From Thiohalobacter thiocyanaticus (GTDB taxonomy: Bacteria; Pseudomonadota; Gammaproteobacteria; Thiohalobacterales; Thiohalobacteraceae): a stretch of DNA of 64,000 nucleotides. The position numbers and the translations under genes were made by a program. Of this stretch, positions 14,235 through 53,439 are shown piece after piece; within the stretch, counting starts at the first letter, position 1; every line of letters starts with the position of its first letter. The notes under the pieces were generated by a model. It was not told where the DNA came from. It did not search any database and saw only the letters and a program-made list of their open reading frames with translations. The stretch lies in the NCBI RefSeq assembly GCF_002356355.1, contig NZ_AP018052.1, forward strand, positions 2,108,001 through 2,172,000, given 5' to 3'.

Positions 14235-14320
14235 GTAGGTTGGGTCAGGCGCGCAGCGCCGTAACCCAACAGGTTGCAGCCGCGATTTGTCGGGTTACGC
14301 TGCGGCTGACCCGACCTACG
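14235..14320. repeat. REP pair (variant stem)
   Basis: Two inverted REP hairpins in the convergent gap between the DUF2835 gene and the oxygenase-like gene. The left arm reads GTAGGTTGGGT...ACCCAAC rather than the usual TCGGGT/ACCCGA, so both sides of the stem changed together. The last bases, CCTAC, contain the TAG stop of the leftward gene. Confidence 0.85.
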
Positions 14321-14877: not shown

Positions 14878-14955
14878 GTAGGTCGGGTTAGCGCAGCGTA
14901 ACCCGACACTTGCCGGCGGATGTCGGGTTACGCCTTGCAGGCTGATCCAACCTGC
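14878..14955. repeat. REP pair
   Basis: The left arm starts GTAGGTCGGGTTAGC and closes with GTAACCCGAC. The inverted right arm is decayed at its foot (CCAACCTGC in place of CCGACCTAC). It occupies the divergent spacer between the oxygenase-like gene and the HIT gene, so it lies in promoter rather than terminator territory. Confidence 0.85.
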
Positions 14956-15011: not shown

Positions 15012-15422
15012 ATGACCCGACTCCATCCCCGCCTGGAACAGGACTGTCACTACGTCAGCCGCCTGGATCTGTGCCACCTGCTGCTGATGAATGACTGCAA
15101 TTATCCCTGGTGCATCCTCGTTCCCGACCGGGAGGACATCAGCGAGATCCATCAGCTGGAGGAAGCCGACCAGCAGCAGCTGATCCGCGAGTCCTCGCGC
15201 CTGGCCCGCGGCCTGACACGGCTGTACCGGCCGGACAAGCTCAACATCGCTGCCATCGGCAACCTGGTACCGCAGCTGCATCTGCATCACGTGGTACGTT
15301 ATATCGGCGATCCGGCCTGGCCGAAGCCGGTGTGGGGCCATGCCCCCGCCCGTCCCTACACGACTGAAGCGGCGGACGAGGCCGTTGCACGTCTGCAGGA
15401 GGTCATCGCCCGGTCTGTGTAG
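15012..15422 (+). CDS. HIT-family hydrolase
   Basis: Histidine-triad protein of 136 residues. The signature NLVPQLHLHHVVRYIGDPAW contains the histidine cluster and continues into PKPVWG, the form seen in the short proteobacterial HIT hydrolases. These enzymes cleave nucleotide phosphoramidates or dinucleoside polyphosphates; the actual substrate is unknown. The ATG at 15012 follows AAGGAG by 13 bases, somewhat long. The stop codon TAG is the GTAG end of a palindromic repeat (15419-15500). Confidence 0.85.
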   Translation: MTRLHPRLEQDCHYVSRLDLCHLLLMNDCNYPWCILVPDREDISEIHQLEEADQQQLIRESSRLARGLTRLYRPDKLNIAAIGNLVPQLHLHHVVRYIGDPAWPKPVWGHAPARPYTTEAADEAVARLQEVIARSV

Positions 15423-15500
15423 GATGGGTGGAGACGCATCGTGCCGCAACCCATCACCGGAGCGGGTACGATGGGTTGCGCTGCGCTCCACCCATCCTAC
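15419..15500. repeat. Palindromic repeat, GTAGGATGGGT family
   Basis: Imperfect inverted repeat starting GTAGGATGGGTGG and ending CCACCCATCCTAC, with an inner pair GCAACCCATC/GATGGGTTGC. It is related in design to the main REP (GTAG foot, long stem) but has a different stem sequence. It fills the whole convergent gap and donates TAG stops at both ends: 15420-15422 for the HIT gene and 15497-15499 for the antiporter gene. A fragment of the same family, GTAGGATGGG, occurs at 53291. Confidence 0.75.
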
Positions 15501-17447: not shown

Positions 17448-17524
17448 GTAGGTCGGGTTAGCGCAGCGTAACCCGACATGCCATGAGTGCGTCGGGTTAC
17501 GCCTTTCAGGCTAACCCGACCTAC
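17448..17524. repeat. REP pair
   Basis: A standard pair: the left arm GTAGGTCGGGTTAGC-GCA-GCGTAACCCGAC and the right arm with loop CCTTTCAGG, facing each other across about 15 bases. It lies downstream of the DUF3365 gene and upstream of the antiporter gene. The 230-base spacer holds no gene. Confidence 0.9.
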
Positions 17525-22554: not shown

Positions 22555-22635
22555 GTAGGTCGGGTTAGCGCAGCGTAACCCGACAGGTCAGCCATGGGCG
22601 CGTCGGGTTACGCCTTTCAGGCCAACCCGACCTGC
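22555..22635. repeat. REP pair
   Basis: GTAGGTCGGGTTAGC...GTAACCCGAC followed by an inverted arm ending AACCCGACCTGC (final GTAG decayed to GCAG). It lies between recJ and the RpfE-like gene, directly next to the GTCATTGCGAGC palindrome. Confidence 0.88.
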
Positions 22636-24860: not shown

Positions 24861-24941
24861 GTAGGTCGGGTTAGCGCAGCGTAACCCGACATGCCCGGCG
24901 GACTGCGTCGGGTTACGCCCTGCCGGGCTAACCCGACCTAC
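24861..24941. repeat. REP pair
   Basis: GTAG-footed arms with loops GCGCAGC (left) and CCTGCCGGG (right). It occupies most of the spacer between hom and thrC, so it would be transcribed within the presumed operon and could stabilise the upstream hom message or cause attenuation. Confidence 0.88.
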
Positions 24942-27867: not shown

Positions 27868-27949
27868 GTAGGTCGGGTTAGCCCGGCAGGGCGTAACCCG
27901 ACGTGATCCACACAGACATGTCGGGTTACGCTGCGCTAACCCGACCTAC
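27868..27949. repeat. REP pair
   Basis: The left arm has the GCCCGGCAGGGC loop and the right arm the GCTGCGC loop, so the two arm types are in the opposite order to most loci. It lies between alaC and the rightward Mth938-like gene. The 11-mer TTATACGCATG occurs 17 bases before it and also 13 bases before the next REP pair. Confidence 0.88.
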
Positions 27950-28407: not shown

Positions 28408-28488
28408 GTAGGTCGGGTTAGCCTGAAAGGCGTAACCCGACAGGATTCGCGCTGTATTGTAGGGTTACGCTGCGCTAACCCGACCTAC
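28408..28488. repeat. REP pair
   Basis: The left arm has a GCCTGAAAGGC loop. The right arm begins TGTAGGGTTACGCTGCGC, where CGGG has become AGGG on one side only, an uncompensated change. It lies in the convergent gap between the Mth938-like gene and rpoS. Confidence 0.85.
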
Positions 28489-33032: not shown

Positions 33033-33110
33033 GTAGGTCGGGTTAGCGCAGCGTAACCCGACATGCCGCGGAGGGTGTCGGGTTACGCCTTTCAGGCTAA
33101 CCCGACCTAC
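33033..33110. repeat. REP pair
   Basis: A standard pair with GCGCAGC and CCTTTCAGG loops in the convergent smr/truD gap. It is followed at 33124-33175 by an imperfect inverted repeat of another family (AACGCGGAAACGC ... GCGCCTCCGCGTT). Confidence 0.9.
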
Positions 33111-34254: not shown

Positions 34255-34340
34255 GTAGGTTGGGTCAGGCGCGGCAGCGCCGTAACCCGACGAATCCGGT
34301 CCGGGATGTTGGGTTACGCCATTTGGGCCAACCCAACCTG
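34255..34340. repeat. REP pair (variant)
   Basis: The left arm is GTAGGTTGGGTCAGGC...CGTAACCCGAC and the right arm GTTGGGTTACGCC...CCAACCCAACCTG. The right arm shows the paired TCGGG to TTGGG and CCCGA to CCCAA change; the left arm has changed on one side only. It lies in the divergent truD/DUF72 spacer. Confidence 0.8.
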
Positions 34341-37930: not shown

Positions 37931-37966
37931 ATTCAACATGGATACAGTCATCGCATTCCTACACCT

Positions 37967-38131
37967 TGTCGGGTTACGCCCTGTGGGCTAACCCGACCTA
38001 CTCTTCTGACCCGACCTGCCCGCTTCACTCATTGCGGCGGAATCCTGTCGGGTTACGCCCTTCGGGCTAACCCGACCTACGTTGGCATCTTGTCTTATCC
38101 CGTAGGTCGGGTTAGCGAAGCGTAACCCGAC
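37967..38131. repeat. REP cluster of three
   Basis: One single arm at 37967-38001, a second arm in the same direction at 38046-38080, and an inverted arm at 38102-38131 beginning GTAGGTCGGGTTAGC-GAA-GC. A decayed fragment (GACCCGACCTGC) lies near 38008. The cluster separates hsdR from the transglycosylase gene. Confidence 0.88.
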
Positions 38132-38155
38132 AAAAATTCAACTCAATCCCGACAC

Positions 38156-40546
38156 TCAATACAGATTACGCTGGAATCCGACAAAAACTTCCCGAATATT
38201 TTTCACTTCGCCCAGCTCATATACCGCGTCATCAACTGTATTGTATTTCAGTGTGATCAGCTGCGGCAGCTTCTCGGTATCGAGCTCGGTGACGCCGCGC
38301 TCGATATAGTGATTCAGCACAAAATCCAAGAACTCCCGCTGATGAAAATCATAGGGCCGGAATATGTCCTCGCGGTGAAGCGCCACCCGCTCGGCCCGGG
38401 TCACCGGCGGCAGGGCGAAGGCGATGTAGGCCAGCACATCGTAGAGATCACTGTTCTCGGCCTCGATCAGCTTCCCGATCTCGCGCAACTGCTCGATGCC
38501 ATAGCCCTTCTCCTCCAGCCCCGCCAGCAGCCGGCGACGGGTTTCGGGATCGCTCCACAGCTCGCGCAGCTCATCCTCGTTGCGGAACAGCTCCGGCAGC
38601 TCGCCGAACAACCGCTGGACGAACTCGGCCGCCGAGATGGGTTTGCCGTCCGGGCTCCAGAAACTGGTGGCGGCCATGTGCTGTATGGTCCGTTCCTTGC
38701 CGTCCGCGAGTTTAACCTTCACCTTCCGGCGGTTGTCACAGACACAGGGATACTCGCCACAGACGGGACATGCCTCTGGCGGTGGTTTCTCGCACACACA
38801 GGGCCGCTGGCCGCAGACCGGACAGGGCCGGGGCGGGTCCACCACGCAGGTGCAGGGGCTGTTGCCGCAGCGACCGCAGGGCTCGGGCGGCAGCGGCTCA
38901 CCGTCCCATTCCTCATCTTCGAAGTGTTCGTAGGCCTTCACGAAGTCGTGGATGGTGAAGTAGTCCTTGCCCTCGAACAGGCGGGTGCCGCGGCCGATGA
39001 TCTGCTTGAACTCGATCATGGAATTCACCGGCCGCATCAGCACGATGTGGCGCACATTGCGGGCGTCCACGCCGGTGGAGAGCTTCTGCGAGGTGGTGAG
39101 GACGGTCGGGATGGTCTTTTCGTTGTCCTGGAAGGCACGCAGCCAGCGCTCGCCTTCGGCGCCGTCGTTGGCGGTGACCCGTTCGCAGTAGTGCGGATCG
39201 GGGTTGGACTTCATCTGGTTGACCAGGTCCCGCACCGCCAGCGCATGCTCCTGGGTGGCGCAGAACACCAGGGTCTTCTCGCGCGGGTCGATACTTTCCA
39301 GGAACAGCTTCACCCGATACTTCTCGCGCGCTTCGATCTCGATGACCCGGTTGAAGTCGTCCTCGATGTAGCGCTTTCCCTCCTCTATCTCGCCTTCCAC
39401 CACCTGATCGTCCGAGGTGTAGACATACTCGTCCAGGGTGGTGGCGATCTGGCGAACCTTGAACGGGGTGAGGAAACCGTCGTTGATGCCGTCCTTGAGG
39501 GAATAGATGTACACCGGCTCGCCGAAGTAGTCGTAGGTGTCGGCGTTAGCGTCGCGCCGGGGCGTGGCGGTCAGCCCCAACTGCACGGCGGGGCTGAAGT
39601 ACTCCAGGATGCCGCGCCAGGTGCTCTCATCGTTGGCTCCGCCCCGGTGGCACTCGTCGATGACGATGAAATCGAAGAAATCCGGCGGATAGTCGCCGAA
39701 GCTGGGCTGCGGATTGCCCTCGGCGTCGCGCCCGCTCATGAAGGTCTGGAAGATGGTGAAGAACAGGCTGCCGTTCTTGGGCACACGGCCCTTCTTGCGG
39801 ATCGACTCCGGATCGATCCGCACCAGGGCGTCGTCGGGAAAGGCCGAGAAAGCGTTGAAGGCCTGATCGGCCAGGATGTTGCGGTCGGCCAGGAACAGGA
39901 TACGCGGCAACCGCCCCGTCTCCCCGCTCTCCCGTGCCACCAGGCTCCAGCGGGCGTGGAACAGTTTCCAGGCGATCTGGAAGGCGATGGCCGTCTTGCC
40001 GGTGCCGGTGGCGAGTGTCAGCAGGATGCGGTCGCGACCGTCGGCAATGGCCTCCAGGGCGCTGTTGATAGCGTTGTGCTGATAGTAGCGCGCCTCCCAA
40101 GCCCCGCCCCGGGCCTCGAAGGGCACCGCCCCGAAGCGCTCGCGCCAGACCTTGCGCTCGGCGAAGGTCGCATTCCACAGGTCATCCGGCGCCGGCCAGG
40201 CCTCCACCGGCCCTTCCGTGCCGGTGTGCATATCCACCCGGTAGATGTCCTCGCCGTTGGTGGCGAAGGCGTAGCGCGCCTGCAGCCGCTCGGCGTAACG
40301 CTTGGCCTGGCCCAAGCCCTCGGTCACCGGCAGGCCGCACTTCTTGGCCTCGATCACCGCAAGATTCTGCCCCCGGTAGGTCAGGACGTAATCCGCGATA
40401 TCCCGCTGCCCGCGACGGCCACCGCCGATCAGGCGACCGGGCGCAATAATCACCTCACGCCTGGGCCTGCTGCCGTCGACCACGCCCCAGCCGGCCTCCT
40501 TCAGGGCCGGGTCGATGAGTTCGGCGCGGGTTTCGGCTTCATTCAT
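38156..40546 (-). CDS. hsdR: Type I restriction enzyme subunit R, EcoEI-like
   Basis: Endonuclease/translocase subunit of 796 residues. The N-terminal PD-(D/E)xK nuclease has D52, E66 and K68 in DIADYVLTYRG then AVIEAKK. The SF2 motor has Walker A ATGTGKT at 179-185, a DECH box (FIVIDECHRGG), LTATPRRDA and IIGRGTRLFEGKDYF. An EcoEI-type C-terminal domain follows. Unusual is a cysteine/proline-rich insert at about residues 556-604 with three C-x2-C-x4-C-x-C repeats, a likely zinc-binding module. HsdR normally needs the HsdM/HsdS pair encoded upstream; a RAYT gene and REPs sit between. Confidence 0.93.
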   Translation of the reverse strand: MNEAETRAELIDPALKEAGWGVVDGSRPRREVIIAPGRLIGGGRRGQRDIADYVLTYRGQNLAVIEAKKCGLPVTEGLGQAKRYAERLQARYAFATNGEDIYRVDMHTGTEGPVEAWPAPDDLWNATFAERKVWRERFGAVPFEARGGAWEARYYQHNAINSALEAIADGRDRILLTLATGTGKTAIAFQIAWKLFHARWSLVARESGETGRLPRILFLADRNILADQAFNAFSAFPDDALVRIDPESIRKKGRVPKNGSLFFTIFQTFMSGRDAEGNPQPSFGDYPPDFFDFIVIDECHRGGANDESTWRGILEYFSPAVQLGLTATPRRDANADTYDYFGEPVYIYSLKDGINDGFLTPFKVRQIATTLDEYVYTSDDQVVEGEIEEGKRYIEDDFNRVIEIEAREKYRVKLFLESIDPREKTLVFCATQEHALAVRDLVNQMKSNPDPHYCERVTANDGAEGERWLRAFQDNEKTIPTVLTTSQKLSTGVDARNVRHIVLMRPVNSMIEFKQIIGRGTRLFEGKDYFTIHDFVKAYEHFEDEEWDGEPLPPEPCGRCGNSPCTCVVDPPRPCPVCGQRPCVCEKPPPEACPVCGEYPCVCDNRRKVKVKLADGKERTIQHMAATSFWSPDGKPISAAEFVQRLFGELPELFRNEDELRELWSDPETRRRLLAGLEEKGYGIEQLREIGKLIEAENSDLYDVLAYIAFALPPVTRAERVALHREDIFRPYDFHQREFLDFVLNHYIERGVTELDTEKLPQLITLKYNTVDDAVYELGEVKNIREVFVGFQRNLY

Positions 40547-40700
40547 TGCTGACAGCCATCAGATAATCAAAACCCGATCAGGGAATATTGTCGTGCCCGG
40601 GTTTCTTAATATGTTGTTTTTGATAAATTATTAAGCAACACAATATCGGTTGTCTCTGCCCGAGTCAAAGCCCGCTCAGGAAAATCTTCTTATTACCCCA

Positions 40701-40786
40701 TGTCGGGTTACGCCCTTCGGGCTAACCCGACCTACGAAAATGAAGCACGGCTGATGTAGGTCGGGTTAGCGCAGCGTAACCCGACA
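40701..40786. repeat. REP pair next to RAYT and hsdR
   Basis: An arm with the GCCCTTCGGGC loop at 40701-40735, then an inverted GTAGGTCGGGTTAGC arm at 40756-40786. It ends six bases before the RAYT stop codon and lies about 150 bases upstream of the hsdR start. Confidence 0.9.
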
Positions 40787-40792
40787 CGGCGG

Positions 40793-41329
40793 TCACTCCC
40801 GCCCAACCCCCTCAAAATCCACGCACCCACCACCCCAATCAGGCGGATACGCCCCCATCCCCACATACCGATGAAAACTCGACCAGGCCCAATCCGCTAC
40901 CGACCCCACATAGCCATGCTTCACCGGGTTGTAATGGATATATTCCACATGCCGCACATAATCATCAGCGTCGCGCAACGTATGTTCCCAGTATCGGTGC
41001 TGCCAGACCCCGCCTTCGCCCCTTTTCGCCTGGCGCTGCGAAGCCATTCCGCGCAACAACGGATCGCAATGCCGGGTAAACCCCGTCTTGATCAGCCGCC
41101 AGCGGGTCGCGAAATCCGCATCGCCCTCCGGCAGCGTCCAGATGCAATGCAGATGGTCGGGCAGGATCACCACCGCATCCATCCGGAACGGGTAGCGGGT
41201 CCGGACCGACCGAAAGGCCTCGCGCAGCACAGCGACCGAATTCATGCGGGTCAGAATCGGCCGGCGGCCGGCCGTCACCAGCGTGAAAAAGAAACACCCG
41301 CCCGCCACGAAATTGCGTCGGTAGTTCAT
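40793..41329 (-). CDS. REP-associated tyrosine transposase (RAYT)
   Basis: HUH/Y1-type single-strand DNA transposase of 178 residues, IS200-like. The HUH motif is H59-L-H61 in VVILPDHLHCIWTLP. The tyrosine helix contains DYVRHVEYIHYNPVKHGYVG, with Y123 or Y130 as candidate nucleophile. The family signature FFFTLVTAGRRPIL is near the start. RAYTs bind and nick REP hairpins having a 5' GTAG foot, exactly the repeats that flank this gene on both sides and fill the spacers of this window. Unlike an insertion sequence it is a single copy without its own ends. It lies between hsdS and hsdR. Confidence 0.93.
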   Translation of the reverse strand: MNYRRNFVAGGCFFFTLVTAGRRPILTRMNSVAVLREAFRSVRTRYPFRMDAVVILPDHLHCIWTLPEGDADFATRWRLIKTGFTRHCDPLLRGMASQRQAKRGEGGVWQHRYWEHTLRDADDYVRHVEYIHYNPVKHGYVGSVADWAWSSFHRYVGMGAYPPDWGGGCVDFEGVGRE

Positions 41330-41390
41330 AACGACATCCTTGTCGTAATTGCATATTGTTCACGTTGCCGAACAACCCCCACACCACCCC

Positions 41391-41472
41391 GTAGGTCGGG
41401 TTAGCGAAGCGTAACCCGACACATAACGCCGGAATCCCGTCGGGTTACGCCCTTCGGGCTAACCCGACCTAC
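41391..41472. repeat. REP pair between RAYT and hsdS
   Basis: The left arm is GTAGGTCGGGTTAGC-GAA-GCGTAACCCGAC and the inverted right arm has loop CCCTTCGGG. The same two loop variants also occur in the cluster downstream of hsdR (38046-38131), suggesting they arose together. Confidence 0.9.
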
Positions 41473-41494
41473 GCCTCGCCATGCACGGCCGCGG

Positions 41495-42751
41495 TCATGC
41501 CACGGCCTCCTGCACCTCGTCTTCGGCCTTGTCCGCCGTCAGCTCGCCGGAGAAGGCCTTTTGCAGGAGGGATTGTTTGAGTTCGGCAAGAGCTGAAAGC
41601 TTTTTCCTATATATATTTTCCAATTCACCCGTCGTTTGACGATGCTCGTTCAATTTCAGAATGATATTTTCCTGCTGATCGATTGGTGGCATTGGAACCC
41701 GGATTTCCTTTAGCACCTTCACAGAAGCAACGTTTTTCATCGCTGCCCCAACAGAATGCTTGGAGATTTCATTCAGAAAAGCACCTGACTCCATCCAGAA
41801 TTTCAGGAATTCAGATAGAACATCATTGGATGGCGTCAACTTCAGTAATGCCTGATTGATAATTCCACGCTTCAGACCTGATGGCGCTATAGAGACTTTA
41901 CCCATTGTGCCAGAACAACTCATGATAAGATCTCCCGGCTTCAGCTCAAATCTGGCCATTTGCTGAAATTTACCGCCGTCAACAAAATACCTGACCTCAT
42001 CAAACTGGTTATTTATGGCATGTTGTTGCTCATATACTGCATAGCCTTCCGGAACAAATATCGATTTCTTGAGACTCCCTCCAAAAGGGCCACGAACAAA
42101 CTCACATACGTCACCAAAGCGGACTTTTGAATATTTTTCATCAAGCACCTGAAACAGGGAATTCAAATAACTCTCAAACAACTCCCGCGCATTGGCGAGG
42201 TTCTTTTCGGTATTGGCGATGGCCGTTTCAATCCCCGCGAAGGTCTCATCGAGAATGGCGACGATGCGTTTTTGTTCAGCCACAGACGGCAAAGGTATCG
42301 GATGATTTTCAATAAATTCTTTCGGTACACGTTTGTGACCGACCGCGCCGGACATAACGCTGGCACCGGCTTCCCTAAAGCTATCTTGCGAAAGAAAATA
42401 AAAAAGGAATTCCGGATCAAGCTCATCGCCAGATCTGAATACGATGAATTCACTCGACCCAAATCCAATCCCATTGGTTAGGCCACGCGCGATACCCAGC
42501 TTTCCATTCTCGAAACACGGAGTAATCTTTGCTAGCAACACATCACCCTCCGCAAAGTAGGTATAGCTCCCCGCGACTTCGGATAACCGTCTGTCGGTAG
42601 TCAGCCGCAGTTGTTTTTCGCGAATTCCAAGCTGATCCATCGGGACGAAGGACACTAAATCATCATCTGCAAGCCGCAGCTTAGCCTCTCTTTTGGGAGG
42701 CTTAATCTGACAAACATCACTCAATGCACGCCAATCCCAGTCAGGTCTCAT
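41495..42751 (-). CDS. hsdS: Type I restriction-modification specificity subunit S
   Basis: DNA-recognition subunit of 418 residues with two target-recognition domains. The first runs to about residue 155 (ends KEFIENHPIPLPSVAEQKRI, then VAILDETFAGIETAIANTEK); the second ends IRVPMPPIDQQENIILKLNE. The repeated IPLP/VPMP-x-QQ/EQ helices are the conserved spacer regions that set half-site spacing. Both TRD segments are clearly more AT-rich than neighbouring genes, typical of exchanged recognition domains. The start overlaps the hsdM stop (ATGA). The target sequence cannot be predicted. Confidence 0.93.
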   Translation of the reverse strand: MRPDWDWRALSDVCQIKPPKREAKLRLADDDLVSFVPMDQLGIREKQLRLTTDRRLSEVAGSYTYFAEGDVLLAKITPCFENGKLGIARGLTNGIGFGSSEFIVFRSGDELDPEFLFYFLSQDSFREAGASVMSGAVGHKRVPKEFIENHPIPLPSVAEQKRIVAILDETFAGIETAIANTEKNLANARELFESYLNSLFQVLDEKYSKVRFGDVCEFVRGPFGGSLKKSIFVPEGYAVYEQQHAINNQFDEVRYFVDGGKFQQMARFELKPGDLIMSCSGTMGKVSIAPSGLKRGIINQALLKLTPSNDVLSEFLKFWMESGAFLNEISKHSVGAAMKNVASVKVLKEIRVPMPPIDQQENIILKLNEHRQTTGELENIYRKKLSALAELKQSLLQKAFSGELTADKAEDEVQEAVA

Positions 42752-44616
42752 AACATCCCCCTAATCCCCTCCAGAATCTCCTCACTCTCCCGATCCAGCG
42801 TCTCGATCTCGTTGATGATGACCTCCGGATCGCGCAGGGGATCCTCCTCGACCTTGTTGGGATTCTTCACCGACAGGTCCCAGGTCTCCGGGTCGATGTC
42901 CTCGATGTTCACGGTCCAGGATTCATCGGAGTCGGCAAAACTCGCCTGCAGCTCGACGAATTCCTGCAGGTCGTCATCGTTGAGCGGGCTGGTCTTGCCC
43001 AGGCTGCGGCCGGGGTCGAGGTGGTAGTACCAGATGTTCTGCGTGGGCCGGCCCTTCTCAAAAAAGAGCACCACGGTCTTCACGCCGGCGCCGAGGAAGG
43101 TGCCGCCGGGGCAGTCGAGGATGGTGTGCAGGTTGCAGTTCTCCAGCAGTTCCCGGCGCAGGGCGCGGGAGGCGTTGTCGGAGTTGGAAAGGAAGGTGTT
43201 CTTGATGACGATGGCCGCGCGGCCGCCGGCCTTGAGATGCTTGATGAAGTGCTGCAGGAACAGGAAGGCGGTCTCGCCGGTCCTGATATCGAAGTTGTTC
43301 TGTATCTCCTTGCGCTCCTTGCCGCCGAATGGCGGGTTGGCGAGGATGATGTCGAAGCGGTTCTTCTCCTGGATGTCGGCGAGCTTCTCGGTGAGGCTGT
43401 TGGTGTGGATGATGTTGGGCGCCTCGATGCCGTGCAGGATCATGTTCATCAGCCCGATGACATAGGGCAGGCTCTTCTTCTCCTTGGCGGTGAAGGTGCG
43501 GGTCTGCAGGGTTTCCAGGTCCTGGGTGGAGAGCTTCGGATGGTTGGCCCCGTCCGGGCCCTCGGGGCCGTAGCGCAGGTAGTCGTAGGCCTCGCACAGG
43601 AAGCCGCAGGAACCGGCCGCGGCGTCGTAGATGGTTTCGCCGATCCGCGGGTCGATCACCCGGATCATGGCGCGGATCAACGGGCGCGGGGTGTAGTACT
43701 CGCCGCCGTTGCGCCCGGCGTTGCCCATGTTGCGGATCTTGGCCTCGTAGAGGTGCGACAGCTCGTGCTTCTCCTTCTGGGAGCGGAAGCTGAGTGCGTC
43801 CACATATTCCAGGGCGTCGCGCAGACTGTAGCCACTCTGGAACTTGTTGCGGATCTCGCTGAAGATCTCGCCGATCTTGTACTCGATGGTGTCGGTGTTC
43901 GCGGCGCGTTCGCGGAAGCCCTGCAGGTAGGGGAACAGCTCGGTGTTGACGAAGGTGATCAGGTCGGGGCCGGTCAGGGCATTGTCGTGATCGAAATTGC
44001 CCTCCTCGTCCTTGGGCGCGGCCCAGCTGGACCAGCGGAAGGCCTCTTCAATGATGGGTGCATAATCCTTGCCGCGGAGTTCCGCCTCATCGGCCCGCCT
44101 GCGTTCCAGGTCGTCCAGATACTTGAGAAACAGCATCCAGGAGGTCTGCTCGGTGTAGTCCAGCTCGGTGGCGCAGCCGGCTTCCTTCCACAGGACGTTA
44201 TCGATGTTCTTGAAGGTCTGCTCGAACATTGGGGCGGTCGGTTCCCGTTTGCGGTCGGCCGGACGTGGCGCGGGCCTGGGTTTGGGGGTTGCCTGTCTGG
44301 CGGGCGGTTCAGATTCGAATTCGGTTTCGGGCTCTGATTCAGGCTCGGGCGGCTCGTTGCCGAGCAGTCGGTCGATCAGGGGCTGCTTCTCGCGGCCGCT
44401 GCTGTCCAGGCCCTGCGCCTCGCACAGGGTCTTGAGTTCGGCACGCTTGAGTGCGTGCAGCAGGTACTCGACCGGCAGGCTGCGCTTGCGGCTGAGGATG
44501 GCGACGAAATCGGGTTTGTTCAGGCCGGTGAGGCCCTCGATGCCGAAATCGGCGGCGAGTTCGCGGCCGCGGGCGAGGGTCAGGGTTTCGAAGATCTGTT
44601 TGCGGGTGATGCTCAT
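42748..44616 (-). CDS. hsdM: Type I restriction-modification methyltransferase subunit M
   Basis: N6-adenine methyltransferase of 622 residues. An HsdM_N helical domain covers about 130-265, then the SAM motif DAAAGSCGF at 331-339 and the catalytic NPPF at 427-430. Odd is an extra N-terminal region: residues 1-85 form two SAP/Rho-N-like helical motifs (LPVEYLLHALKRAELKTLCE), followed by an acidic then proline/arginine-rich linker to about 128. Most HsdM proteins begin near the MFEQTFKNIDNVLW equivalent at residue 130. It is the first gene of the hsd locus, and its upstream spacer is an array of REPs. Confidence 0.93.
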   Translation of the reverse strand: MSITRKQIFETLTLARGRELAADFGIEGLTGLNKPDFVAILSRKRSLPVEYLLHALKRAELKTLCEAQGLDSSGREKQPLIDRLLGNEPPEPESEPETEFESEPPARQATPKPRPAPRPADRKREPTAPMFEQTFKNIDNVLWKEAGCATELDYTEQTSWMLFLKYLDDLERRRADEAELRGKDYAPIIEEAFRWSSWAAPKDEEGNFDHDNALTGPDLITFVNTELFPYLQGFRERAANTDTIEYKIGEIFSEIRNKFQSGYSLRDALEYVDALSFRSQKEKHELSHLYEAKIRNMGNAGRNGGEYYTPRPLIRAMIRVIDPRIGETIYDAAAGSCGFLCEAYDYLRYGPEGPDGANHPKLSTQDLETLQTRTFTAKEKKSLPYVIGLMNMILHGIEAPNIIHTNSLTEKLADIQEKNRFDIILANPPFGGKERKEIQNNFDIRTGETAFLFLQHFIKHLKAGGRAAIVIKNTFLSNSDNASRALRRELLENCNLHTILDCPGGTFLGAGVKTVVLFFEKGRPTQNIWYYHLDPGRSLGKTSPLNDDDLQEFVELQASFADSDESWTVNIEDIDPETWDLSVKNPNKVEEDPLRDPEVIINEIETLDRESEEILEGIRGML

Positions 44617-44642
44617 CTGCGGTTGTTATTCTGTTGGTAGCT

Positions 44643-44997
44643 GCATGTTTTCTGAACAGACGCGGCATATGTCGGGTTACGCCCTGCGGGCTAACCCGAC
44701 CTACGTACTGCATATTTTCTGAACAGACGCGGCATATGTCGGGTTACGCCCTGCGGGCTAACCCGACCTACGTACTGCATATTTTCTGAACAGGCGCGGC
44801 ATATGTCGGGTTACGTCCTGCGGGCTAACCCGACCTACGTACTTGTCCCGGCGGAATCCTGTCGGGTTACGCCCTGCGGGCTAACCCGAGCTATGTGCCC
44901 GTTGCGGCGGAACCCTGTCGGGTTACGCCCTCACGGGCTAACCCGACCTACTCTGCTCCTGCACTTCGTAGGTCGGGTTAGCGTAGCGTAACCCGAC
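44643..44997. repeat. Tandem 67-bp REP array upstream of hsdM
   Basis: Three near-identical 67-base units start at 44643, 44710 and 44777. Each consists of GCATATTTTCTGAACAGACG, a short joint and one REP arm with the CCCTGCGGG loop. Two diverged arms follow (44860-44894 and 44916-44951), with joints containing GGCGGAA. One inverted arm closes the array at 44968-44997. The 400-base spacer between ispF and hsdM holds nothing else. Confidence 0.9.
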
Positions 44998-45016
44998 AAC
45001 GATCACCAAACCCGTC

Positions 45017-46213: not shown

Positions 46214-46294
46214 GTAGGTCGGATCAGCCCGTCAGGGCGTAATCCGACACCCGTAGGCAGCCCTGTCGGGTTACGCTGCGCTAACCCGACCTAC
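46214..46294. repeat. REP pair (covarying stem)
   Basis: The left arm is GTAGGTCGGATCAGCCCG...GGGCGTAATCCGAC: CGGG became CGGA and CCCG became TCCG together, preserving pairing. The right arm is standard. It lies between ftsB and ispD. Confidence 0.88.
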
Positions 46295-48017: not shown

Positions 48018-48099
48018 GCAGGTCGGGTTAGCGTAGCGTAACCCGACAGGAACGCGGCAATAACGTCGGGTTACGCCCTGTCGGGCTAACCCGACCTAC
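48018..48099. repeat. REP pair
   Basis: The left arm has GCAGGTCGGGTTAGC (foot GTAG changed to GCAG) with a GCGTAGC loop; the right arm has the CCCTGTCGGG loop. It lies between kdsA and eno. Confidence 0.88.
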
Positions 48100-50671: not shown

Positions 50672-50781
50672 TCAGCGGCCGGCGGGATGACGCGGGCGGC
50701 GCTACGGACGGGAGTCAACGATACCAGAACCCCCCCACCCGTACAACGCGACCCGCATCACAAACGGCTCCATTGCTGATC

Positions 50782-50861
50782 GTAGGTCGGGTTAGCGCAG
50801 CGTAACCCGACACGAAGCCGGCAAATGTCGGGTTACGCCCTCTCGGGCTAACCCGACCTAC
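50782..50861. repeat. REP pair flanked by 16-bp direct repeats
   Basis: A standard pair with GCGCAGC and CCTCTCGGG loops between tilS and pyrG. The perfect 16-mer CAAACGGCTCCATTGC occurs before it at 50761-50776 and after it at 50899-50914, where it is part of the tilS 3' end. Confidence 0.88.
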
Positions 50862-50889
50862 GGGTCGGGCGCAGAAAAGCGGGGCGGAA

Positions 50890-52224
50890 TCAGCCCGGCA
50901 AACGGCTCCATTGCAATACCAGGCCGGGCTGCTCGCCGCGCGCCTGCCAGCCCTCCGCGAGCCACAGGCCGGCCACGGCAACGAGTTCATCGTCACAGTA
51001 CACCAATGGCACGCGGTCGCGCTCCCAGGGGGGAATGCCGCGCTCCTGGAACAGGTGCTTGAGACTGTGGTGATGACCGCGACCGGCCGGGGCCAGGCGT
51101 TCGCCGCCGACGCGGAAACCGAGCTGCAGGCGACGGCCGGCGAGCGCCTCCCGGGCCAGCCCCTGCCCCGGCGTGGGCATGACCTCGAGCCGGCCTGCGG
51201 CGGCAGGGATATTCACGTCACCGCCGTCCCAGCCCTGTCGCTGGGCGGGCGGCACGGGCAGCGGCGGCATGGCATAGAGATCGTCCCGGTAACGGCGCAC
51301 CTCGCCCCCGGGCCAGTGCACCCGCGGCATGGTATCGGCGCGGGCCCCCAGCACGCTCTGCTCGATCTGTTCCAGCACCGCCTCGCTGGGCATGAGCAGG
51401 CCCAGGCCATGCAGCCAGTAGCGCAGCAGGTTGCGCCGACGCGGCGGGGTGTAATGCAGCAGGGCCGCGACCGACAGGGTGGCCGGTCCCCGGCCGCCGA
51501 CCTGCAGCAGATCGCTGATGGCCAGATCGACCTGCAGACTGGCGGCATCGGCCTGGTGGCGGGCCGCACGGGCCAGGGCACGTTTCACGCCCGGCCAGCG
51601 CGCCTGCAGCCGCGGCAGGATCTCGTGGCGCAGGAAGTTGCGGTCATAGTGCCGGTCGGCGTTGCTCGGATCCTCGATCCAGTCCAGATCCCGGTTCCGG
51701 GCCCACTCCAGCAGCTGGGCACGCGTGACCTCCAGCAGCGGCCGGCACAGCCAGCCCGGGCCGAACACGCTCACTGCGGGCATTCCCGCCAACCCCCTGG
51801 GTCCACTGCCGCGCAGCAGCTGCAGCAGCAGGGTCTCGGCCTGATCGTCCTCGTGATGGGCCGTGACCAGACAATGATCCGGTTGCAGCCACTCACGCAG
51901 CGCCCGATAGCGGGCCTCGCGCGCAGCGGCCTCGGGGCTCTCGCCCGGCCCGGGCCGGGCCTCGACCCGGTGCAGTTCAAAGGGGATGTCCAGCTCCTGG
52001 CACAGCGCCCGGCAGCGCTCACTCCAGTGCGCCGAGTCCGGCTGCAGCTGATGATCCACATGCACCGCACCCAGCGGCATCCCCAGCTGTTCGCGCTGAT
52101 CGGCCAGCCGGTGCAGCAGAACGACCGAATCCAGACCGCCGCTCAATGCCACCCAGCAGGCCTGCGCCTGGGGAATCCATTCCTTGATGTGACGGGCGAC
52201 CGGGGGGAGCGTCGAGGTGCTCAG
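50890..52224 (-). CDS. tilS: tRNA(Ile)-lysidine synthase
   Basis: Modifies C34 of the tRNA-Ile that reads AUA; about 444 residues. The PP-loop ATPase motif is CWVALSGGLDSVVLLHRLAD. HDQLQPDSAHWSER-type (here HVDHQLQPDSAHWSE), HHEDDQAETLLLQLLRGSG and DPSNADRHYDRNFLRHEILP are family stretches, followed by TilS substrate-binding and C-terminal domains. No ATG, GTG or TTG exists in frame between the accA stop and the PP-loop region. A CTG at 52224, ten bases after AAAAGG and six bases after the accA stop, is the best start. Confidence 0.9.
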   Translation of the reverse strand: MSTSTLPPVARHIKEWIPQAQACWVALSGGLDSVVLLHRLADQREQLGMPLGAVHVDHQLQPDSAHWSERCRALCQELDIPFELHRVEARPGPGESPEAAAREARYRALREWLQPDHCLVTAHHEDDQAETLLLQLLRGSGPRGLAGMPAVSVFGPGWLCRPLLEVTRAQLLEWARNRDLDWIEDPSNADRHYDRNFLRHEILPRLQARWPGVKRALARAARHQADAASLQVDLAISDLLQVGGRGPATLSVAALLHYTPPRRRNLLRYWLHGLGLLMPSEAVLEQIEQSVLGARADTMPRVHWPGGEVRRYRDDLYAMPPLPVPPAQRQGWDGGDVNIPAAAGRLEVMPTPGQGLAREALAGRRLQLGFRVGGERLAPAGRGHHHSLKHLFQERGIPPWERDRVPLVYCDDELVAVAGLWLAEGWQARGEQPGLVLQWSRLPG

Positions 52225-53244: not shown

Positions 53245-53439
53245 CAACACAAAGGCGCGAAGGCGCAGAGAACGCAGAGTTTTCAATCATGTAGGATGGG
53301 CTGGGCAGAGTAGTAGGTCGGGTTAGCGCAGCGTAACCCGACACTCGGCAGGAGATCCTGTCGGGTTACGCCCGAATGGGCTAACCCGACCTACCTCTCA
53401 TACATCTTGCGTCCTCTGCGCCTTCGCGCCTCTGCGTTG
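53245..53439. repeat. Long inverted repeat with nested REP pair
   Basis: Outer arms of about 34 bases (AAAGGCGCGAAGGCGCAGAG at 53251-53270 and its complement in 53406-53439, about 30 of 34 matching) enclose a REP pair at 53313-53394. Related GCGCAGAGGCGC-type sequence occurs alone near 57027-57062. The whole spacer between dnaE and accA is made of these repeats. Confidence 0.7.
53313..53394. repeat. REP pair
   Basis: The left arm has a GCGCAGC loop and the right arm a CCCGAATGGG loop. It is the rightmost REP of the window; none was seen in the last 10.6 kb. It is preceded at 53291 by a fragment of the GTAGGATGGG family. Confidence 0.88.

Follow-up and report, generated by a model that had tools for sequence, protein, structure and literature searches.

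The locus studied here raises the question of whether a transposase gene and the hairpin repeats on either side of it belong to one system, and of how that system is seated in a restriction operon. The gene lies in a 64,000-nucleotide stretch of Thiohalobacter thiocyanaticus DNA (NZ_AP018052.1, positions 2,108,001 to 2,172,000; hereafter the window). We are highly confident that the locus is a REPtron, that is, a single-copy domesticated HUH/Y1 transposase (RAYT, TnpAREP group 2) together with its cognate GTAG-footed REPs.

The RAYT gene (40793..41329, minus strand) is intact and encodes 178 amino acids. It matches NF047646, "REP-associated tyrosine transposase," with 199.9 bits (cut-off 80), Pfam Y1_Tnp with 21.1 bits, slightly under the cut-off of 23, and the E. 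coli TnpArep structure 4er8 with an E value of 1.9e-46. The HUH residues (H59-L-H61), the catalytic-type Tyr130 and N134 were all mapped, with H59/H61 and Y130 aligning with H59/H61 and Y115 of the E. coli enzyme and being kept in 115 to 116 of 116 relatives, and the equivalents of E. coli GTAG-contact residues are present as Q110, E115, and R119. The C-terminal GTAG contacts of E. coli, G160/E161, correspond to a tail that is unaligned in this RAYT and in nearly all of its relatives. Subclass 2.2 of group 2 is recognized by an E at the position equivalent to residue 100 of E. coli (2.5 and 2.7 have D) and an insertion between helix C and beta-4 (PMC6006769); here, E115 occupies that position, and about 15 extra residues lie between helix C and beta-4.

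Four REPs lie within 150 bp of the gene. On its downstream side, the long-loop REP GTAG-GTCGGGTTA-GCCCGAAGGGCG-TAACCCGAC (40702..40735, minus strand) stands tail to tail with the short-loop REP GTAG-GTCGGGTTA-GCGCAGCG-TAACCCGAC (40756..40785, plus strand), which adjoins the RAYT stop, while on its upstream side a short-loop REP (41391..41420, plus strand) and a long-loop REP (41439..41472, minus strand) stand head to head and make up a complete REPIN. The sequence-only reading, which had placed an HUH/Y1 gene between two REP pairs, is borne out in this respect (pairs at 40702-40785 and 41391-41472). Across the window, a strict scan (GTAG or GCAG foot, 9-nt arm, complementary 3' arm) found 36 REPs at 17 loci, and the same rule found none in 40 Markov-1 simulated windows with the same dinucleotide frequencies. 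A relaxed scan gave 40 entries without adding to the 17 loci; two of these entries are overlapping artefacts, leaving about 38 REPs. The earlier count of about 39 GTAG-footed REPs at 17 loci therefore falls within the range from 36 (strict) to 40 (relaxed), with a chance expectation of none, and the first 14 kb and last 10.6 kb of the window are indeed free of REPs, since the first REP of the strict scan starts at 14235 and the last ends at 53394.

Beyond the RAYT flanks, the strict scan places REP pairs at 14235..14319, 22555..22635, and 24861..24941 and a diverged REP at 34255..34291 (plus strand); the pair at 14878..14955 has a degenerate second member, and the one at 17448..17524 is a short/long pair set head to head. 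Several loci can be followed into two sister species (G009 and G010). The pairs at 33033..33110 and 48018..48099 are shared with both, the pair at 28408..28488 is shared with G009 with at least one of its REPs present in G010, those at 46214..46294 and 50782..50861 are present in G009 and not in G010, and the one at 53313..53394 is shared with G010. Copies of AACGGCTCCATTGC flank the pair at 50782..50861 on both sides (window 50765-50930), here as well as in G009, while a single similar copy without a REP is found in G010. All REP loci examined between 33 and 53 kb lie between identified genes. A cluster of two long-loop REPs (minus strand) and one short-loop REP (plus strand) at 37968..38131, between the SLT-domain gene and hsdR, and another cluster at 44671..44997, between hsdM and ispF, form the left and right borders of an hsd/RAYT insert relative to the sister species. 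The second of these starts with three 67-bp tandem units (44671-44838), whose long-loop REPs, one per unit, all point the same way. The claim that the arms are mostly head to head thus holds for most pairs, the exceptions being this tandem array and three tail-to-tail pairs with GTAG inside (38047/38102, 40702/40756, and 44917/44968).

Each REP consists of GTAG, GTCGGGTTA, an inner hairpin, one unpaired G, and TAACCCGAC, with the inner hairpin being either short (GC-NNN-GC; loop GCNNAGC) or long (GCCC-N(3-4)-GGGC and variants). Both forms fold as single-stranded DNA far beyond shuffled sequences (z of -4.2 and -5.3), and the best long-loop fold includes the bulged G. For 20 distinct 30-nt REPs that flank RAYTs in many species, the 11-pair helix has 99.5% of its cells paired, and six stem pairs show changes on both sides, a level reached in 0 of 500 shuffles; an alignment that included the GATGGGCAA REPs was misaligned and was set aside. 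Base 1 (G) and base 4 (G) of the arm are invariant at 106 RAYT loci, the first G being part of the selection. With a GTAG foot, an imperfect palindrome, and a high copy number, these repeats fall within the GTAG REP superfamily; Rfam gave nothing at the gathering threshold on the sequence.

A short-loop REP is combined with a long-loop REP in every real inverted pair examined in this genome, 16 in the window and 7 in another stretch of 60 kb (23/23 over 124 kb), and in 16 of 18 inverted pairs in the sister species. The pairs, mostly head to head, have a spacer of 12 to 21 bp, so that the unit GTAG...CTAC measures 76 to 85 bp, and little is conserved outside it apart from a weak pyrimidine preference before GTAG and purine preference after CTAC. 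At the site orthologous to the pair at 27868..27949, G009 lacks the entire doublet and is a clean empty site, with 96% identity on one flank, roughly four additional bases to the left and five to the right, and no clear target duplication; G010 likewise has no REP there. This fits a REPIN gain in the lineage of the genome studied here (G000), to which a precise loss of the doublet in G009 is the alternative, with G010 also being REP free at this site. It was the single clean case found, other candidate empty sites being too diverged from the relatives or occupied by other sequence. To judge from these sequence comparisons, that is, the consistently heterotypic pairs and an empty site at one locus only, the mobile unit is the two-REP unit (REPIN). 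Elsewhere in the genome (G000:C1:912219-912399), we observed a REP pair nested in another inverted repeat (GACGCAAAGACACAGAGGCGCAAAG ... CTTTGCGCCTTTACGCCTCTGCG), inside which G009 has other sequence.

Genome-wide, REPs with the GTCGGGTTA stem (class A) amount to 175 exact copies, or 178 when looser loops are allowed (control pattern, 0), and one class A RAYT gene stands against these 178 dispersed cognate REPs. The sequence-only reading had proposed a genome-wide check for a single RAYT, and this check returned two strong RAYTs plus one remote relative. The second RAYT (G000:C1:321525-322019) lies 1.8 Mb away, is 55% identical to the window RAYT, and is flanked by class B REPs, GTAG-GATGGGTG...CAACCCATC, with 126 copies in the genome. 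With repeats of a separate class (GATGGGTG stem), this RAYT is no competitor for class A REPs, and no rival RAYT with better-matching flanks was found. Two parallel REPtrons coexist in this genome, each with its own repeat. We further observed class B REPs bordering a segment of about 1.9 kb on either side at the second RAYT, a lone class B-like hairpin in the window (15419-15455, the sole one there), and a third RAYT-like gene (G000:C1:661859-662218) with 73.6 bits, under the cut-off, and no REPs seen beside it.

REP copy numbers follow RAYT content among the sisters. G000 has both RAYTs, G009 (78% complete) has only the class B RAYT, and none was found in G010 (91% complete), with class A REPs numbering 178, 129, and 64 and class B REPs numbering 126, 70, and 10, respectively. 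REP density is therefore not equal in the RAYT-less relative, where class A copies are fewer (64 versus 178), although they persist. No RAYT A orthologue was found in the genomes of the family; a search at order level covered the same 11 genomes. With 129 class A REPs in G009 without RAYT A, and 64 in G010 without any RAYT, the gene is not needed for their upkeep. The share of perfect copies does not differ among the three species (0.39, 0.33, and 0.37; the 3 to 4 mismatch bins of this tally include reverse strands of the same REPs), indicating that decay after gene loss is not visible.

A search of a collection of bacterial and archaeal genomes places the 80 best relatives of the RAYT, at 52 to 66% identity, mostly in gamma- and betaproteobacteria and to a lesser extent in candidate Methylomirabilis, deltaproteobacteria, a cyanobacterium, and other groups, labels that may err where they belong to metagenome bins. 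The suggestion that the GTCGGGTTA stem defines a REP class of its own does not stand, as exactly this arm stands at 63 of the 106 RAYT loci whose flanking arm was scored, from several phyla; the 63 is not a census, because loci were sampled for their similarity to this RAYT and a few rows are duplicates across two collections. On the RAYT tree of the 106 loci, the REP arm changes 27 times, compared to a mean of 42.5 and a minimum of 39 in 500 shuffles. This supports the notion that the REP arm follows RAYT phylogeny and that the REPs of the window are the cognate repeats of this RAYT, which itself forms a lone basal branch of its clade (best match, 66% identity). Among 369 genomes of the class, taken to be Gammaproteobacteria because some of their RAYTs are identical to those of named members, a RAYT is present in 21 of the 24 with class A REPs and in 82 of the 345 without them (Fisher P = 4e-10, kinship not corrected), and G000 has by far the most class A REPs. 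Class A REPs in G001, G025, G031, G038, and G091 were found only around the RAYT. The residue column that best changes together with the arm is position 83, beside E. coli K82 (P = 1.5e-4, uncorrected over about 900 tests), which makes it a lead only.

The window RAYT sits in the slot between hsdS and hsdR in a type I restriction operon whose genes all lie on one strand. An EcoAI/FtnUII-type hsdR (38156..40546, minus strand; NF046051, 798 bits) is separated by the RAYT from hsdS (41495..42751, minus strand; Pfam Methylase_S), and hsdM (42748..44616, minus strand; Pfam N6_Mtase, PADLOC MTase_I) adjoins hsdS, giving the order hsdM-hsdS-RAYT-hsdR. The GC content of hsdS is 47%, compared to 64% for hsdR, 63% for hsdM, and 65% for the window, which suggests a swapped specificity gene, and no close relative of this HsdS was found among ten genomes of the family. 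The hsdS-hsdR junction (window 40546-41495) is variable in homologous plasmid operons (HsdR 63 to 67% identical): the slot holds a Phd/PIN toxin-antitoxin pair in Methylomagnum and a PDDEXK nuclease in Nostoc and is empty in Crinalium, while in Aquincola a Phd/PIN pair precedes hsdR and hsdS lies beyond the examined stretch.

The operon as a whole is bracketed by REP clusters between ispF and the SLT-domain gene. Comparing window 37952-45016 with L146 8204-9008 and L147 8748-9375, we observe that ispF and the SLT gene are just 0.6 to 0.8 kb apart in G009 and G010, with REPs between them and without the hsd/RAYT insert. Instead, G009 carries a DUF2283 gene with a small partner, and G010 carries a BrnT toxin with a CopG-type antitoxin (the latter slightly under the cut-off). 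REPs and differing cargo in three species mark the interval as an integration site associated with REPs, where the cargo changes and here includes the RAYT. Arrival of the RAYT together with the operon and a later move into it fit the lack of a family orthologue and the basal branch alike. RAYT genes are regarded as immobile. That a whole REPtron moved or was captured, with a REP-RAYT-REP cassette entering the hsdS-hsdR slot, REPs providing the places where defence cargo lands or recombines, and the RAYT travelling along, seems to us rather unlikely.

We infer the chemistry and timing of REP spread. By analogy with the E. coli enzyme (PMC8266576), this RAYT would bind and nick these REPs: once a REPIN becomes single stranded, the RAYT would read the GTAG foot and the bulged hairpin, cut beside the hairpin via a tyrosine link, and join the REPIN elsewhere, so that REPINs would spread at a low rate while the RAYT gene stays at one copy. 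The second RAYT would serve its different REP class likewise. An ordinary IS200/IS605 transposase with the REPs as its ends could account for the weak Pfam Y1_Tnp match and the palindromic flanks, but not for a RAYT equivalog match far over the cut-off or for one gene copy against about 178 non-coding flank copies, and we give it practically no credence; a mobile multi-copy insertion sequence of this type is refuted by copy number and family assignment. It is also very unlikely that the repeats are simply maintained by the host as RNA or DNA elements (mRNA 3' hairpins, terminators, or gyrase/IHF sites) and spread by ordinary recombination and duplication, with the RAYT being a mere neighbour that has two pairs. 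The many REPs at orthologous sites in the sister species agree with this, as does their retention without visible decay in the RAYT-less G010, but the tight match of RAYT clade and REP arm across phyla, the tracking of RAYT presence by REP presence, the five genomes with class A REPs at the RAYT only, and the clean empty site in G009 all argue against it. Host upkeep and RAYT-driven spread are nevertheless compatible, and both can be true.

A further alternative concerns history and is compatible with the REPtron reading, namely, that class A REPs were spread by an earlier, now lost RAYT and that the present RAYT A is a recent newcomer that came with the hsd operon. The insert is absent from the orthologous ispF-SLT site in both sisters, neither HsdS nor RAYT A has a close counterpart in the family, RAYT A branches alone, and many class A REPs are present in both sisters nonetheless. 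However, this history requires the coincidence that the REPs of a foreign RAYT matched letter for letter those already amplified, even if the class is widespread, and loss of an ancestral gene in two sisters explains the same data, RAYT loss with REP retention being known in E. coli (PMC8049555, PMC3733652). The GC3 of the RAYT, 0.73, is below that of most neighbours and is not decisive. We consider the newcomer history a possibility to be held tentatively, somewhat doubtful on balance.

The REPtron described here is in line with that of E. coli (TnpAREP/RayT; Y, Z1, and Z2 REPs; PDB 4ER8; PMC8266576), with which it shares a group 2 RAYT (79 of 160 aligned residues identical), a GTAG foot directly on a long stem with unpaired bases, REP pairs of differing subtypes flanking a single-copy gene, and relatives that keep REPs without the gene; E. 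coli strains without RAYT have fewer REPINs but never none (PMC8049555). It differs from E. coli in the GTCGGGTTA stem with its single bulged G, in the 15 or so residues inserted before beta-4, in having T in place of K82 (the E. coli residue in contact with the bulged C), in the second REPtron of the genome, and in the location of the gene inside an hsd operon. The Pseudomonas fluorescens REPINs (PMC3116915, PMC8049555) likewise have an inverted REP doublet as the mobile unit and a single-copy RAYT, but there the RAYTs are of group 3 and the REPs are short and mostly perfect, whereas here the RAYT is of group 2 and bulged REPs always combine a short-loop and a long-loop arm. Stenotrophomonas (PMC2817692) shares the REP-rayt-REP layout, RAYT/REP co-evolution, several RAYTs with their own REPs per genome, and REP numbers that track the cognate gene, yet with different stems and another RAYT group; here, one stem is common to RAYTs from different phyla that are about 55 to 66% identical to the query. 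Multiple REPtrons per genome are known from Stenotrophomonas and others (PMC2817692, PMC6006769). GTAG REP families 1 to 24 (PMC3733652) share the GTAG tag, head-to-head dimers, and, as in GTAG-3, GC/GC and GGC/GCC loop ends, a comparison made by description because the family consensus sequences are in a figure.

The REPtron, RAYT/REP co-evolution, the REPIN unit, and orphan REPs after gene loss have already been published (PMC2817692, PMC3733652, PMC3116915, PMC6006769, PMC8266576, PMC8049555). A literature search for the letters of the GTCGGGTTA stem found no REP paper among the results listed, sequences shown in figures being out of its reach, and as far as shown within that searched literature, this REP class and its spread are new. 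Also new are the double REPtron of this genus with its graded natural comparison and, unusually, the seat of a RAYT inside a restriction operon that is absent from the sister species.

RAYTs count as one of the clearest examples of transposases that persist for long periods without obvious mobility, and the mode of REP spread is still unsettled (PMC8266576). RAYTs with differences at 35 to 45% of their residues have retained one nine-base stem, whereas other clades have changed it with compensation, and the clades with kept and changed stems are a ready set in which to find the stem-reading residues. The genus itself offers a natural comparison, with three species that have both, one, or no RAYT, two shared REP classes, and orthologous loci that can be aligned.
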